Shown: in pieces, positions 2,100 to 26,883 of the stretch
Position numbering within the stretch: the first letter of the stretch is position 1
Layout of the letters: each line of letters begins with the position of its first letter
From: Pseudomonadota bacterium
GTDB taxonomy: Bacteria; Pseudomonadota; Gammaproteobacteria; Burkholderiales; Thiobacillaceae
Assembly (NCBI GenBank): GCA_021802555.1
Contig: JAJZRU010000004.1
Location: forward strand, 1-64,000
Direction of reading: 5' to 3'
Length of the DNA stretch: 64,000 nt
The notes under the pieces: model-generated
The model's database searches: none
Told to the model about the DNA's origin: nothing
What the model saw: the letters and a program-made list of their open reading frames with translations, nothing else
Made by a program: the position numbers and the translations under genes

Positions 2100-3554
2100 T
2101 TGAGCGAAGAGATCCTGGTCAACGTCACCCCGCAGGAGACACGGGTGGCGGTGCTTTACTTGGGCGCGGTGCAGGAACTGCACGTGGAACGCACTTCCAG
2201 CCTGGGGCTGGTGAGCAACATCTATCTGGGCCGGGTGGCGCGCGTGCTGCCGGGCATGCAGTCGGCTTTCATCGACATCGGCCTGGAGCGCGCCGCCTTC
2301 CTGCACGTCGGCGACATCTGGATGGAGCGCAGCAGCGCGAGCGCGGACAAACCCATCGAACGCCTGTTGCATGAGGGCCAGTCGCTCGTGGTGCAGGTGG
2401 TGAAAGATCCCATCGGCACCAAGGGCGCGCGCCTCACCACCCAGATCAGCCTGGCGGGGCGTTATCTGGTCTATCTGCCGCAGGAATCCCACATCGGCAT
2501 TTCGCAAAAGATCGAGGGCGAGGAAGAGCGCGAGCTGCTGCGCCAGAAGCTCGCCAGCCTGCTGCCCAAGGACAGCGAAGGCGGCTTCATCGTGCGCACC
2601 ATGGCGGAAACCGCGGGCGAAGCCGATCTGGCCGCCGACGTGGCCTATTTGCGCAAGCTGTGGCAAAGCATCCGCGAACGCGCCGCGCTGGGCGGCGCGC
2701 CCGCGCCGCTGTACCAGGACCTGACCCTTGCCCTGCGCGTGCTGCGCGACTTCGTCAATCCGGAAACCGCCCGCATCCTGGTGGATTCGCGCGAAACCTT
2801 CCAGAAGATGCAGGAATTCGCCCTGCTCTACGCCGACGGCATCGGCAGCCGCCTGCAGCACTACGGCGCCGAGCGGCCGTTGTTCGACCTGCACGCCATC
2901 GACGACGAGATCGAGCGCGCCCTGGCACGGCGCGTCGACCTGAAGTCCGGCGGCTATCTCATCATCGACCAGACCGAGGCGCTGACCACCATAGACGTCA
3001 ACACCGGCGGCTTCGTCGGCGCGCGCAATTTCGACGACACCATCTTCAAGACCAACCTGGAAGCCGCCCAGGCCATCGCCCGCCAGCTGCGCCTGCGCAA
3101 CCTGGGGGGCATCATCATCATCGATTTCATCGACATGCACAGCCATGAGCACCGCGACCTGGTGCTCGCCGAGCTGAAGAAGGCGCTCACCCGCGATCCC
3201 ACGCGCTCCAGCGTCAGCGGCTTCTCGCCCCTGGGGCTGGTGGAAATGACCCGCAAGCGCACGCGCGAATCCCTGGCCCACGTGCTGTGCGAGCCCTGCC
3301 CCACCTGCCAGGGGCGCGGCCAGATCAAGACGGCGCAGACCGCCTGCTACGAAATCCTGCGCGAGATCGTGCGCGAAGCGCGCCAGTTCTCGGCGCGCGA
3401 ATTCCGCATCCTGGCCGCCCAGGCGGTGGTGGATCTATTTCTCGACGAACAGTCGCAAAGCCTCGCCCAACTGTCGGACTTCATCGGCCGCCCCATCTCC
3501 CTGCAGGTCGAGACCAGCTACACCCAGGAGCAGTACGACATCATCCTGCTGTAG
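2100..3554 (+). CDS. rng: Ribonuclease G
   Basis: This 484-residue RNase E/G-family endoribonuclease matures the 5' end of 16S rRNA and turns over some mRNAs. The N-terminal S1-like domain starts around residue 35 ([22 protein letters not shown]). The catalytic core contains [13 protein letters not shown] and [11 protein letters not shown] with the Mg-binding aspartates. The zinc-link [11 protein letters not shown] is present. It lacks the long Arg-rich C-terminal scaffold of RNase E, which fixes it as RNase G. The start is TTG at 2100, after an AGGCAAGG ribosome-binding site, and gives the canonical N-terminus [19 protein letters not shown]. It follows maf. Confidence 0.96.
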
Positions 3555-11575: not shown

Positions 11576-12661
11576 TCAAAGACTGGCTGCTTCGTCCCTG
11601 CGCCAAGGCGCGATCACGCCCTTGTAGATCAGATGATAGAGCAAAAGCCCGGCCGGCATCCTCAGCCAATGCGCGTGGATGAGCGCGCCCTGGCGCGCCC
11701 AGGCCCGGCCTGCACTTGGACGGGCCGGCGCGGCCGGCCGAAACAGTTTGCCGTGCATGGCGCGCATGAGCGCTTCGACGCCCCGGGAAGGGCGGTAACG
11801 CTCCACGTGCTCGATCACTTCGCACGGAATCGGCGTGGCAAAGCATGCGCTGAGCTGGGTCACGGCGTAATACAGCGGCCGCCCCAGGCCCAAGGCGTCG
11901 GCGCGCGCGGTGAGATCCAGCCAGAACGAGGCGCTATCGAACTCCCGCAGCAGATTATCGAGATCGGCCAGATCCCGCAATCCATGCTCGAATTCGCCGC
12001 TGAACAAATGCACGGCGCTGTGCAGCACCATGTCGGCCGGCGCCAGTACCTGCACGCCCTCCCAGGCAGGCAGCGGCTGCGCCGCCGCGAACAGGGGCAT
12101 GGCCGAAAACCCGAGGCGCGACGTCTCCGGCAGAATGGCGTGGTGCACGTCCAGCACCGACTCCCGCAGGACGTGCTTGAGCGGCGGCAATTCATGCATC
12201 CAGCGCCGGTAGTAGCGCTGGTCGTAGGCGTTGTGATGGCTCATGGTCCAGCCATCCAGCATGAGGTCGTTTTCAGCCCGTTCCAGCAGGCTCCTGGGCA
12301 GCAGGATGTCCACGTCGGCAAACAACCGCCCGCGTCCCGCGCGCAGTCCGGCCAGCAGATAGGCTGCGCCCTTGAGCAGGATCAGGGGCGCCGGCAAACC
12401 CTGCAAGGCGCGGCGGACGCATTTCACCTCCCAGCACACGGACTGGGCCTGCTTCTCCGCGAGCGCGCGCGCGGCGCGCAGGTGCCCCGTCACCATAGCC
12501 GGCAGGGTCGCCGCGACGCCGGCCTCGTCGGCCAGCAAAGCTAGGCGGGGCAGCAGCAGCGCCGCGCGCGCCTGGCGCAGGAGCGTGTCCCACTGGCCTA
12601 GGTCATAGGCCGCCAGGCGCTCGGGAGCGCGCAGAACAGGCGTGAGCAAGTCGGCGTTCAT
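11576..12661 (-). CDS. Nucleotidyltransferase-fold protein of an HPr-rel-A cassette
   Basis: This 361-residue protein belongs to the uncharacterised nucleotidyltransferase (NTP_transf_5-like) group. It has ILLKGAAYLLAG (around 95-105) and GRGRLFADVDILLP (around 109-122), where R112 and the DVD acidic pair are the recognisable catalytic elements. VLDVHHAI and LAPADMVLHSAVHLF follow, with the family's HDL-type helix. The ATG overlaps the stop of the kinase-like gene by 4 nt, so it is the last gene of the operon. In this context it could transfer a nucleotide to a protein or small molecule. No substrate can be deduced. Confidence 0.85.
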   Translation of the reverse strand: MNADLLTPVLRAPERLAAYDLGQWDTLLRQARAALLLPRLALLADEAGVAATLPAMVTGHLRAARALAEKQAQSVCWEVKCVRRALQGLPAPLILLKGAAYLLAGLRAGRGRLFADVDILLPRSLLERAENDLMLDGWTMSHHNAYDQRYYRRWMHELPPLKHVLRESVLDVHHAILPETSRLGFSAMPLFAAAQPLPAWEGVQVLAPADMVLHSAVHLFSGEFEHGLRDLADLDNLLREFDSASFWLDLTARADALGLGRPLYYAVTQLSACFATPIPCEVIEHVERYRPSRGVEALMRAMHGKLFRPAAPARPSAGRAWARQGALIHAHWLRMPAGLLLYHLIYKGVIAPWRRDEAASL

Positions 12662-13572
12662 GGCGCGAGCGCAGCGAACAGCGCCACGGCTTCCTCCAGG
12701 TCGCCGTAGGAAAACCGATAGCAGTCGCAGCCGTCCACCAGGCGAGCCAGGGCGCCGAATCCGGCCTCTCCCAGCAGGCTGTAGTTGAAGGCGTTCTGCG
12801 CCAGTTCCATGAAGGCGCGCGCGCGCGGCAGCGGCGAAAGCCGCGCCGGAGCATCCGCCTCGTAGCGCGGCAGCACGATCCAGCGCGGTGCGGCCCGGGC
12901 GTCGGCCGCCGCCACGCTGGCGGCAGGAGGGCGCAGATGCGCCACCGTGCCCTTGATCGTGTCCCGCACGGCATCGCTCAGCACCGCATCGCCGGCAAAG
13001 CCGCGGATGACGTCGATGGAGGCGTTCTTGAGGCTGACGGGACGAGCCACGGCCGCCATGTCGAGATTACCCGGATCGAGCAGGGTCAATTCATCGGACA
13101 GCAGCCGCCAGCCGCGAAAACACAGCGCCGCCGCCAGAGTGCTTTTGCCCGCGCCCGGCGGCGCCGGCATGATGAGCCCCGACCCGTCACGCGCCAGGCT
13201 GGCGGCATGCAGGATGAGATATTGATGGGCATGGGCGGTGATGCACCAGTTCATGCCCCATTCGAGCATGGCGGCCGCTTGCGCCCTGGGGAGCGGCTTG
13301 AAAGGGGTCTGCCCGTCCAGATAGAACTGGGCTTGGGGCCGCAGAAATTTCCGTCCAGGCGGCGCTTCCACGCGCACATGGAAATCGGCAAACCCTCCTT
13401 GCGCCGCCACGCCATGCTCCTCGTACAGGCGCCGTAAAGCCTGTGCCACTTCGGAGAAAGAAGAGCGGACGGCAAAGCGGAACACCCCGGTCTGCAGGTA
13501 AAGCCCCGGCCCGCGCAACAGGCCGCCGATTTCCGCCTGCGAAAGGTCGCCCAGTTTCAGCAGACCCGGCAC
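12658..13572 (-). CDS. HprK-related kinase A (HPr-rel-A system)
   Basis: The 304-residue protein resembles the C-terminal kinase domain of HPr kinase/phosphorylase. A Walker A P-loop lies in PAPPGAGKSTLAAAL (136-150), preceded by LHAASLARDG with the conserved His at 122 and followed by WRLLSDELTLLD. True HprK has an N-terminal domain and acts on Ser46 of HPr; no ptsH or PTS gene is present here. A C-terminal Cys-containing segment reads DGCDCYRFSYGDLEEAV. It starts at GTG 13572, overlapping the PqqD-like gene by 16 nt. In these cassettes it is presumably an ATP- or GTP-dependent enzyme acting on the peptide/protein substrate. Confidence 0.88.
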   Translation of the reverse strand: MPGLLKLGDLSQAEIGGLLRGPGLYLQTGVFRFAVRSSFSEVAQALRRLYEEHGVAAQGGFADFHVRVEAPPGRKFLRPQAQFYLDGQTPFKPLPRAQAAAMLEWGMNWCITAHAHQYLILHAASLARDGSGLIMPAPPGAGKSTLAAALCFRGWRLLSDELTLLDPGNLDMAAVARPVSLKNASIDVIRGFAGDAVLSDAVRDTIKGTVAHLRPPAASVAAADARAAPRWIVLPRYEADAPARLSPLPRARAFMELAQNAFNYSLLGEAGFGALARLVDGCDCYRFSYGDLEEAVALFAALAP

Positions 13573-13805
13573 ACGATCAATCCGCTGGCCGCGAGTTGCC
13601 CGAGCATGTCCGTGAAATCGGTGCCGGTCTGCACGCCCAAGCGGGCGGCCAGGTCTGCTTCGTCAAGCTCGCCCTCCCGGAGGCACAGGAGGATGCGGGC
13701 GACGAGCCCATCGACCAGATGCGTATCGCCGGATTCGCGCTGGAAGACCACGGTTTCGTCCGCCCAAGTATGCATGAGCACGGGCGCGCTTTGCCAAACG
13801 GGCAT
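13557..13805 (-). CDS. PqqD-like peptide chaperone (HPr-rel-A system)
   Basis: The 82-residue product has the PqqD/RRE winged-helix pattern: VVFQRESGDTHLVDGLVARILLCL, then ELDEADLAARLGVQTGTDFTDMLGQLAASGLIV. PqqD-fold proteins bind leader regions of peptides and present them to a modifying enzyme. It starts 4 nt after the stop of the Tat-signal CTPGYW protein and overlaps the kinase-like gene, so the three are tightly coupled. The obvious candidate ligand is the N-terminal region of the upstream gene product. No radical-SAM enzyme is nearby. Confidence 0.85.
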   Translation of the reverse strand: MPVWQSAPVLMHTWADETVVFQRESGDTHLVDGLVARILLCLREGELDEADLAARLGVQTGTDFTDMLGQLAASGLIVCRVC

Positions 13806-13809
13806 GCAA

Positions 13810-14469
13810 CTACAGCGGGCAACCCCGATTGTTCAGCATGTCGAAGGTGTCCTTGAGCTTTGCGCCATTGGTCAGATAGTTGTTCTTGAACATGCCGATG
13901 ATCTGGCCCGCCGTATAACCGTAATTGACGGCGGGATTGGCGGCGCTGAGCAAGGCGGCCACGGCCTGGAAGCCCAGATTGGTGGACACGGGATCGCTGC
14001 CCAGGCTACCGGAATAGGAACCATGGGATTGCGCGCTGCAAAACTGGTTGGCGGTCGTGGCCGGTTGGTTGCCGGGGCAGGATTTGATGCCATTGCCGTT
14101 CAGATTCAACACGTCCAGCAGGGTATAGGGATTCCCCGAGCAATCAACATACTCGGTGACATCGAACACGCCATTGAAGGGATCGGTCGGCTGGTAGCCG
14201 ACCCAGGAATCCAAATGCTGACAGGCCCCCCAATAGCCCGGCGTACAGCCCTGGCAGGGCGTGCCTTTGGGTGCCGACAGATTGCCGGACATCATGCCCG
14301 ACACCGTGCATTGATTGGCCCATACCGGCTTTCCTGCCAGCGTCAGGATGACGGCGCCGCCGCCCAAGGCCGCGGTGAACCGCCGCCGCGAGCCGTCGGT
14401 CTCGGGGCGTGAAGCGGCGTCCGGCTGTCGGGCGTCGTCCCGGGTGGATTCAGGAAGCTCCGGCATCAT
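13810..14469 (-). CDS. Tat-signal, Cys-rich CTPGYW-motif protein; candidate HPr-rel-A substrate
   Basis: The 219-residue protein has a polar N-terminal region of about 25 residues, then a Tat-type signal SRRRFTAALGGGAVILTL ending near GKPVWA. The mature part has eight cysteines. It contains CQGCTPGYWGACQHLDSW, PTDPFNGVFDV, TLLDVLNLNGNG, AVAALLSAANPAVNYGYTAGQIIGM and the terminal NNRGCPL. These recall a widespread secreted domain (CTPGYWK...W, PTDxFxxVF, AALLNAAxPxVxYxxT, GCPL at the end). Here the usual K after CTPGYW is replaced by GAC and an extra Cys-rich loop is inserted. The start at ATG 14469 follows AGGAG by 8 nt. It heads the operon, as expected of a substrate. Confidence 0.82.
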   Translation of the reverse strand: MMPELPESTRDDARQPDAASRPETDGSRRRFTAALGGGAVILTLAGKPVWANQCTVSGMMSGNLSAPKGTPCQGCTPGYWGACQHLDSWVGYQPTDPFNGVFDVTEYVDCSGNPYTLLDVLNLNGNGIKSCPGNQPATTANQFCSAQSHGSYSGSLGSDPVSTNLGFQAVAALLSAANPAVNYGYTAGQIIGMFKNNYLTNGAKLKDTFDMLNNRGCPL

Positions 14470-14624
14470 TGTTGTTGCTCCTGGCGAAATTGGCCTTCGA
14501 TATGAAATTTGATTTTCGACATATGCGCAGCAAGAAACATTCCAGACCTTAAGATCTTCGGCGAAACAAGCCTCCGCGGGGTGTTGGCATGGACAGGCCG
14601 GATGCGGCTGCGCCAAACTGTAAA

Positions 14625-15497
14625 TTATTCCGACATCCTTTGACCCCCGCTGATCCGCTCCAGCCCGGCGCCATCCGGGCGTGTCGAGACGCGGCCAAAA
14701 CCCGCGCGTACCAGCATTTCTCTGCACCAAAGCCCCTGTTCCCAACCGTGCTCCAGCCATAGCCAGCCGCCGGGCGCCAAATGCGCCGGGGCGCCGGCGA
14801 TGATCGCCGCAAGTGCGGCACGGCCTGCATCGGGTGCCACCAGCGCCATGCGCGGCTCGTGCGCCAGCGCCGCGAGATGGGGATCGTCTTCGGCCACATA
14901 GGGCGGATTGGACAACACCATGTCGAAAAACTTTACACCGGCGACGGCCTGCCACCAGTCGCCCGCCCAAAATCGCACGCGCGCGGCGCCCAGCCGGCGC
15001 GCGTTGCGTCGCGCAGTGGCGAGCGCCGCCGCGCTGGCGTCGCTGGCGTGAATTTCCCAGCCGGGGCGCTCCAGGGCCAAAGTCAGGGCCAGGGCGCCGC
15101 TGCCCGTGCCCAAATCGAGCACGCGCGCCGCACGCCCTGCCGGCAGCGCTGCCAAGGCTGTCTCCACCAGCAGTTCCGTTTCCGGACGCGGGATGAGCAC
15201 GGCAGAGTCGACTTGGAAAGACCGGCCGAAAAACTCCTGCTCGCCCCGCAGATATGCCACCGGCTCGCCCGCCAGGCGCCTGCCCAGCAGATCGGCAAAC
15301 CCAGTCCCGGCGCGAGATGAAACGGGCTCCGGCTCATGAGCGATCAGCCAGGCGGCGTCGCGTCCCAGCGCTAGGCCGGCCAGCACGCGCGCTTCCAATC
15401 GGGCCGCGCGGGCATCGAGGCCCAGGCCTGCGCTAAGGCGCCGAGCGGCATCTTGCAGCAGAGCGGAAAGGCTCACGGCGACGGCCGGCACATTCAC
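14625..15497 (-). CDS. prmC: Peptide chain release factor N5-glutamine methyltransferase
   Basis: At 290 residues this HemK/PrmC enzyme methylates the GGQ glutamine of release factors. It shows the SAM motif [11 protein letters not shown] (GTGSG at 130-134) and the catalytic SNPPY motif (NPPY at 197-200), preceded by [32 protein letters not shown], which is characteristic. It overlaps prfA, which encodes its substrate, by 4 nt. The intergenic region between its stop and the HPr-rel-A operon is about 155 bp. Confidence 0.96.
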
Positions 15498-26757: not shown

Positions 26758-26883
26758 AAGGGGGCAAATTCTACCCGCCCGCGCAGGAGGGGAAAACTGT
26801 CAGATTTCTTTACACTCCCTCCGCGCGCGCCCGGGCCGGCCCATGCTAAAAACGGGGCTTTACAACCGCAAAGGGAGCGAGCC

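Follow-up and report, generated by a model that had tools for sequence, protein, structure and literature searches.

A stretch of 64,000 nucleotides of contig JAJZRU010000004.1 (positions 1 to 64,000; GenBank assembly GCA_021802555.1), derived from a bacterium of the family Thiobacillaceae and referred to below as the window, contains a quartet of minus-strand genes that run from an ATG at position 14469 to a stop codon ending at 11576, the first two being 4 nt apart and the two later junctions overlapping by 16 and 4 nt. The first codes for a twin-arginine translocation (Tat) signal protein of 219 amino acids with eight cysteines (13810..14469), the candidate substrate of the remaining three. 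These code for a predicted PqqD-fold precursor binder of 82 amino acids that resembles a RiPP recognition element (RRE; 13557..13805), an HprK-related kinase A of 304 amino acids (12658..13572) and a nucleotidyltransferase-fold protein of 361 amino acids (11576..12661). Both models that define membership of the HPr-rel-A system are exceeded, TIGR04353 by the PqqD-like protein (49.7 bits, cut-off 35) and TIGR04352 by the kinase (388.6 bits, cut-off 200), and the last protein belongs to PF14907 (167.9 bits, cut-off 31.2, E 4e-49). The quartet is thus an HPr-rel-A cassette accompanied by a PF14907 nucleotidyltransferase. An earlier description made from the letters of the window (hereafter the sequence-only reading) had reported four same-strand genes with 4- to 16-nt junctions, in which an eight-cysteine Tat-signal protein heads a PqqD/HprK/nucleotidyltransferase trio, and the coordinates and model matches bear this out.

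Neither NCBIfam (limit E 1) nor Pfam (above cut-off) yields a match for the Tat-signal protein, and its features are best seen among its own relatives. In an alignment of 45 of these, with a mean column identity of 18%, Arg29, Ser57 and Ser61 form the sole invariant columns, followed by the nearly invariant Met1, Arg28 and Ser65. The two arginines (Arg29 in 45/45 rows, Arg28 in at least 90%) belong to a signal peptide at residues 27-51 (SRRRF...PVWA; 14317..14391, minus strand), which, as judged on sequence, combines the twin arginine, hydrophobic stretch and signal peptidase site of a Tat substrate, and TatC is encoded elsewhere in the genome (C43). The c-region of the signal has the family consensus TLASRPVxA. 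Shortly behind the signal peptide lies Ser57-x3-Ser61-x3-Ser65 (14275..14301, minus strand), the proposed modification site. Among 82 relatives, Ser61 occurs in all 82, Ser57 in 81 (the other has Thr) and Ser65 in 73, and despite large differences in length the first serine of the motif lies 28-36 residues past the twin arginines in every one. The serines of the window protein are spaced i, i+4 and i+8 and would fall at about +6, +10 and +14 of the mature protein if cleavage occurs after Ala51.

Conservation is distributed unevenly along the protein, with a mean majority of 0.22 over residues 1-27, 0.54 over residues 28-51, 0.55 over residues 52-66 and 0.28 over the rest. The polar stretch before the twin arginines, which had been put forward as a leader, is unconserved and was rejected in this role; the signal peptide may instead double as leader. 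The cysteines and the CTPGYW motif of the C-terminal domain (14230..14247, minus strand) had been taken as the hallmark of the protein, and neither could be retained. The cysteine count of the relatives varies down to zero, with 5/82 being free of cysteine, which also disposes of a disulfide role as the hallmark, and the CTPGYW domain is not specific to the cassette, being found also at the C-terminal end of an unlinked open reading frame (ORF) of 479 amino acids in genome G073 that has neither the Tat nor the Ser parts. On the sequences compared, the hallmark of the substrate family is the S-x3-S-x3-S motif directly after the signal peptide. A structure model of the protein reached a pLDDT of 70.8, with low confidence in the Ser region (block means of about 54), no solved structure resembling it was found below E 1, and no relative was found on viral contigs. 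At one locus (L109) a short substrate-like ORF (66 codons, from 507 to 309 nt ahead of the start of the kinase gene) comprises a Tat signal and about 20 Ser/Asn-rich mature residues, which suggests that the signal and the Ser stretch are the essential portion of the substrate.

Loci for comparison were fetched by the kinase alone, and the set from named genomes consists of the best 80 of 86, with L032 and L057 sharing one genome. The substrate search as a whole covered 104 loci from two collections that share some members. A full-length (>140 amino acids) relative of the window Tat protein is encoded in 70/80 of these loci. The other ten comprise four at a contig end (L035, L045, L057 and L099), one with masked upstream bases (L080), two with short matches (L082 and L109) and three in which no relative of the protein was found (L073, L089 and L090). 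The kinase was found in 28 of 276 evenly sampled genomes of the class and a match to the substrate profile likewise in 28, the two coinciding in 23 (Fisher p 4e-24, shared descent ignored), so that the co-occurrence check proposed for a Tat protein dedicated to the trio as its substrate comes out in favour of that idea. All 20 class genomes with substrate matches below E 1e-24 are kinase-positive, and the five matches in kinase-less genomes cover the GYW part alone (G129 and G133) or the signal end alone (G093, G146 and G226). In the kinase-positive genome G073 the match is the unlinked 479-residue GYW ORF, hence 22 of the 23 genomes are candidates for linkage.

In 64 of a further 70 loci, read by eye, a Tat-signal protein is encoded a short way upstream of the kinase gene (26/27 class, 22/25 phylum and 16/18 later phylum loci), these counts covering the pair of kinase and Tat protein. 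The phylum figures derive from 53 matches, of which 25 new and 18 later loci were read, five had been fetched earlier, and G511, G545, G693, G368 and a second G666 copy were left out. The 27 class loci, one of which (L128) has a 77-residue ORF whose profile match contains stops, comprise 20 in which the Ser motif is present, at times in slightly altered form (L122 with one extra residue and L132 with Thr first), six with a second type of Tat protein and one at a contig end that is untestable (L133). The 22 phylum loci with a Tat protein are divided into four with the Ser motif and 18 of the second type, the remaining three having none. Consistent occurrence of the trio without a nearby CTPGYW gene, which the sequence-only reading had named as the outcome that would count against its substrate model, is indeed observed for the literal hexapeptide and is not observed for the protein family. 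In this respect the sequence-only reading was right, the Tat-signal protein being very probably a substrate dedicated to the trio.

Where the window-type substrate (type I) is missing, another Tat-signal protein usually takes the same place. The signal of the type II proteins follows the pattern P-x-x-x-T-L-x-x-G-A-x-x-A, and towards their C-terminus a Cys is followed three columns later by a Ser (21/21 readable rows of the columns shown; L120, in the wrong frame, was left out of the 22 rows and L130 has no row). A third type is encoded on an alphaproteobacterial plasmid, and seven phylum loci (L198-L204) are similar to it. On a tree of 86 kinases, built by a quick search without bootstraps and with substrate types labelled by eye, the 79 kinases with a typed substrate require one change between types I and II; with the seven untyped kinases included, the two groups require 3 and 5 changes, for which shuffling gave means of 24.4 and 19.6. 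This is the pattern that would be expected of a kinase with a dedicated substrate.

Searched as single sequences, the kinase and the nucleotidyltransferase matched no solved relative within the limit of E 1; profiles were therefore used. The profile of the PqqD-like protein has as its best solved relatives the lasso peptide RREs TbiB1 (E 0.0026) and TfuB1 (E 0.0063). That of the kinase aligns with the HPr kinase 1jb1 (E 0.0051), with matched positions for the His, the P-loop Lys and the Asp-Asp pair; the P-loop GAGKST of the cassette enzyme occupies residues 140-145 (13138..13155, minus strand), and His122, Lys143, Asp160 and Glu161 are invariant in 43/43 rows. A His-Lys-Asp-Asp set was shown to be important in lasso peptide kinases. 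The cassette kinase thus resembles canonical HPr kinase/phosphorylase in its upstream His, P-loop and Asp, but has Asp-Glu in place of Asp-Asp, scores 11.5 bits against the TIGR00679 cut-off of 240, and is found in a genome with a canonical HprK of its own (C6, 332 bits). In the nucleotidyltransferase, the catalytic-type residues Asp116-Val-Asp118 (12308..12316, minus strand) are accompanied by Lys97-Gly98 and Asp171, all invariant in 37/37 rows. A sequence search with its profile gave no convincing match (best E 0.37), and the fold comparison alone was informative. With a structure model of pLDDT 93.5, Foldseek gave no match below E 0.001, the best being MenT1 (2.5e-3), and realignment of the model matched it to nucleotidyltransferases, with Z scores of 12.5 for MenT1, about 10 for ANT(2'')-Ia and 9.2 for LnuA. 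FKRP, a ribitol-phosphate transferase, had a Z of 5.7, which is too low to build on.

The region upstream of the cassette contains a predicted promoter that the sequence-only reading missed, and with it the regulatory link. A predicted binding site for the activator PrsR, TGTCGGAATAATTTACA (14619..14635, minus strand), is 17 nt long and has TTTACA at its 3' end, in both respects agreeing with the described motif 1. It is followed after 74 nt by a predicted sigma-54 (-24/-12) promoter, TGGAATGTTTCTTGCT (14529..14544, minus strand), which scores 10/12 and whose two ends lie 75 and 60 nt ahead of the ATG, so that the whole promoter spans 60-166 nt 5' of the start codon. A ribosome-binding site, AGGAG (14478..14482, minus strand), ends 8 nt 5' of the same ATG. 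Promoters of PEP-CTERM genes have been described as a motif of 17 nt with TTTACA at its end, a spacer averaging 62.8 nt (32-92) and a -24/-12 site that ends on average 71 nt from the start codon (PMC1569441). The box, the spacer, a GG-N10-GC site before the start codon and a PrsK in the genome are all found here. The pattern of box and sigma-54 site occurs once in the window and in 0/100 shuffles, and four times in the genome against none in the reversed control. One of the other genomic sites precedes a 52-residue protein with a PEP-CTERM domain above cut-off and another a protein above cut-off for the flocculation-associated PepA; in Aquincola, PepA is described as RpoN-dependent and involved in floc formation (PMC9850573). 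The fourth (G000:C30:162997-163093, L218) has no obvious exported protein after it and is followed, by eye, by an argJ-like ORF. Two further TGTC-N8-TTAC boxes without a good sigma-54 site lie on the plus strand at 14921-14936, inside the opposite-strand prmC, and at 26798-26813.

Palindromic dyads were sought upstream of the substrate genes, and the strongest signal was instead TGTC-N8-TTAC. This occurs in 45/80 homologous upstream regions against 0.2 expected, and is followed in 44 by a sigma-54 site (score >=8) at 52-98 nt; sigma-54 sites scoring at least 9 of 12 occur in 61/80 against 4.98 expected. Both counts include close relatives and the window's own locus, regions having been discarded as duplicates only if their final 100 nt were identical. 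PrsK is encoded in 28/28 kinase-positive class genomes and in 54/248 others (p 4e-17, shared descent again ignored), and exosortase in 25/28 and 60/248, respectively, the window genome being among the three without. Neighbour clusters near the cassette include PrsK (21/80 loci), PrsR (20/80) and an exosortase-system acyltransferase (14/80), each named from one scanned member of the cluster. The cassette promoter fits, in its sequence, the PrsR box and sigma-54 type of the PEP-CTERM matrix regulon, which is a new finding; it shares the kind of box, the spacer and the -24/-12 site with that regulon as described in PMC1569441 and PMC9850573, and in this genome with the PepA-family gene. Unlike PEP-CTERM proteins, the candidate substrate has a Tat signal and lacks a PEP-CTERM tail, TIGR02595 not being matched in the NCBIfam search at E up to 1, and unlike the known regulon this one stands in a genome without an exosortase match. 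PrsK is encoded in the window genome, as are two or more PEP-CTERM proteins whose genes stand behind PrsR/sigma-54 promoters.

The genes that flank the quartet are ordinary by Pfam, with prmC-, prfA- and hemA-like genes on one side and glutaredoxin, DUF3108, rhodanese and redoxin genes on the other. At other loci, a cluster whose one scanned member (L051, 3338-4177) is HtrA/MarP-like, below the cut-offs of those models, occurs near the cassette in 22/80 cases (L031-L110), and such a neighbour might process the exported substrate. At L185, L186, L190 and L205, where the HprK_rel_A gene has no Tat neighbour, the upstream position is taken, as judged by eye, by a small ORF resembling nucleotidyltransferases (L185), by one resembling glycosyltransferases (L186) or by unrelated genes. 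In L162, from a genome with no HprK_rel_A match at the survey limit, a 91-codon ORF with a Tat-like signal (1498-1773) is followed by a sub-threshold HprK_rel_A homologue (2351-3172; 70.7 bits, cut-off 200), a pair that is possibly a minimal cassette variant.

The closest parallels to the enzyme trio are the tailoring modules of lasso peptides (paeninodin, pseudomycoidin and bsf), which likewise have an RRE (B1), an HPr-kinase-like K and a nucleotidyltransferase N, the likeness being one of kind, as judged by profile and fold. In the bsf cluster, which also has a nucleotidyltransferase gene (bsfN), the phosphorylation of Ser by the HPr-kinase-like BsfK was strongly increased by the RRE BsfB1 (PMC10368454). 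In pseudomycoidin, the C-terminal Ser is phosphorylated by the kinase, and the addition of one or two hexoses to the phosphate is due to PsmN (PMC9266682 and PMC8498205). The three enzymes had been held to represent folds not normally grouped together, a view contradicted by the lasso clusters, which join all three. The cassette differs from these modules in its proposed substrate, a Tat-signal protein of about 170 mature residues. No B2 protease or C cyclase was found by Pfam in the four cassette and seven flanking genes, the rest of the genome not having been searched, and no lasso D transporter in the seven flanking genes. Plasmid records carry the product names of the HPr-rel-A system, and in the two examined the upstream protein is labelled a hypothetical protein. 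No paper with HPr-rel-A, TIGR04352, TIGR04353, PF14907, NTP_transf_5, PqqD_rel or 'HprK-related kinase' was found in the open-licence literature searched. The trio is already known on lasso peptides, and its use on a Tat-signal protein appears new.

Considered together, these observations favour, with a probability of roughly 0.6, the reading of the cassette as an HPr-rel-A unit that is dedicated to modifying and exporting the product of its own first gene. Gene content, motifs, catalytic-type residues, cross-genome linkage and promoter are read directly from the locus and its relatives, and from them the binding, phosphorylation and capping of the substrate, the order of the steps and its final location may be inferred. 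PrsK/PrsR and sigma-54 would turn the operon on alongside PEP-CTERM proteins of the biofilm and floc matrix. The PqqD-fold protein would then bind the precursor, probably via the conserved Tat signal and not the variable polar N-terminus, and the HprK-like kinase would phosphorylate at least one serine of S57-x3-S61-x3-S65. The nucleotidyltransferase-fold enzyme would subsequently add a group (hexose or nucleotidyl) to the phosphoserine, and the modified product would leave the cytoplasm by the Tat pathway for the envelope or the extracellular matrix.

Several results weigh against this interpretation. No Tat neighbour was found at the kinase loci L024, L073, L089, L090, L185, L186, L190, L205 and L208, and if the seven untyped kinases on the tree of 86 are counted, types I and II require 3 and 5 changes, respectively. 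The Ser motif is absent from the type II and alphaproteobacterial-type substrates, which implies a different site in these proteins or a different role for Ser57-65. The window genome, at a completeness of 99.99%, has PEP-CTERM genes but no exosortase match (TIGR02602 at E up to 1e-3; PF09721 at E up to 1e-10), and the box occurs anywhere in 16/27 class loci but only 10/43 phylum loci. Finally, even for pseudomycoidin the two reports cited above leave room for glycosylation by a host glycosyltransferase.

The strongest competing explanation, though unlikely, is that the trio acts on another target, such as an exopolysaccharide or lipid precursor, and that the Tat protein serves in the matrix or in assembly and is co-regulated with the trio. 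The regulon and some of the neighbours (PrsK, PrsR and the acyltransferase) are linked to exopolysaccharide, nucleotidyltransferase folds act on many small molecules, and the L186 kinase has neither a PqqD nor a Tat neighbour and, by eye, follows a glycosyltransferase-like ORF; the inclusion of a PqqD-fold peptide binder in the unit, the invariant Ser and the co-divergence of kinase and substrate all argue in the other direction. It is considerably less probable that the HprK-like enzyme has a regulatory role in phosphorylating HPr or another cytosolic carrier, with the linkage to the Tat protein being incidental. The sequence-only reading had seen no phosphotransferase system, ptsH or radical S-adenosylmethionine gene, which holds for the seven flanking genes in a Pfam scan and fails genome-wide for ptsH, HPr being encoded on C17. 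This HPr and the homology of the kinase P-loop to that of HprK would suit such a role, but the canonical HprK is a separate gene, the cassette kinase falls far short of the TIGR00679 cut-off, the cassette has no HPr gene, and linkage to Tat-signal proteins is frequent. A toxin-antitoxin-like or dead unit, comprising a MenT-type toxin or inactive enzymes that serve as Tat-export chaperones, is the least probable of all, MenT1 being the closest fold but the catalytic-type residues being invariant in both enzymes, which are conserved within a larger unit and stand behind a sigma-54 promoter of matrix type.

Dedication of the unit to the Tat-signal protein could, somewhat more tentatively and at rather less than even odds, be extended to a general route to phospho-capped matrix proteins, that is, proteins carrying a phosphodiester-linked sugar or nucleotide. 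In such a route, an RRE-guided kinase and a nucleotidyltransferase would act on a cytoplasmic Tat substrate within the PrsK/PrsR/sigma-54 regulon, with at least two substrate types that track kinase clades and a third in alphaproteobacteria. HPr-rel-A, a system named but unexplained, gains candidates for its substrate family and its acceptor serines, together with a likely regulator and, probably, a place of action in the extracellular matrix. If the proposed route is correct, it would represent a protein-sized, exported counterpart of lasso peptide phosphoglycosylation and would give the PEP-CTERM regulon a second arm, one that depends on Tat, and the kinase and nucleotidyltransferase logic of lasso peptides would also serve to decorate whole exported proteins in the PEP-CTERM/exopolysaccharide regulon of environmental bacteria.

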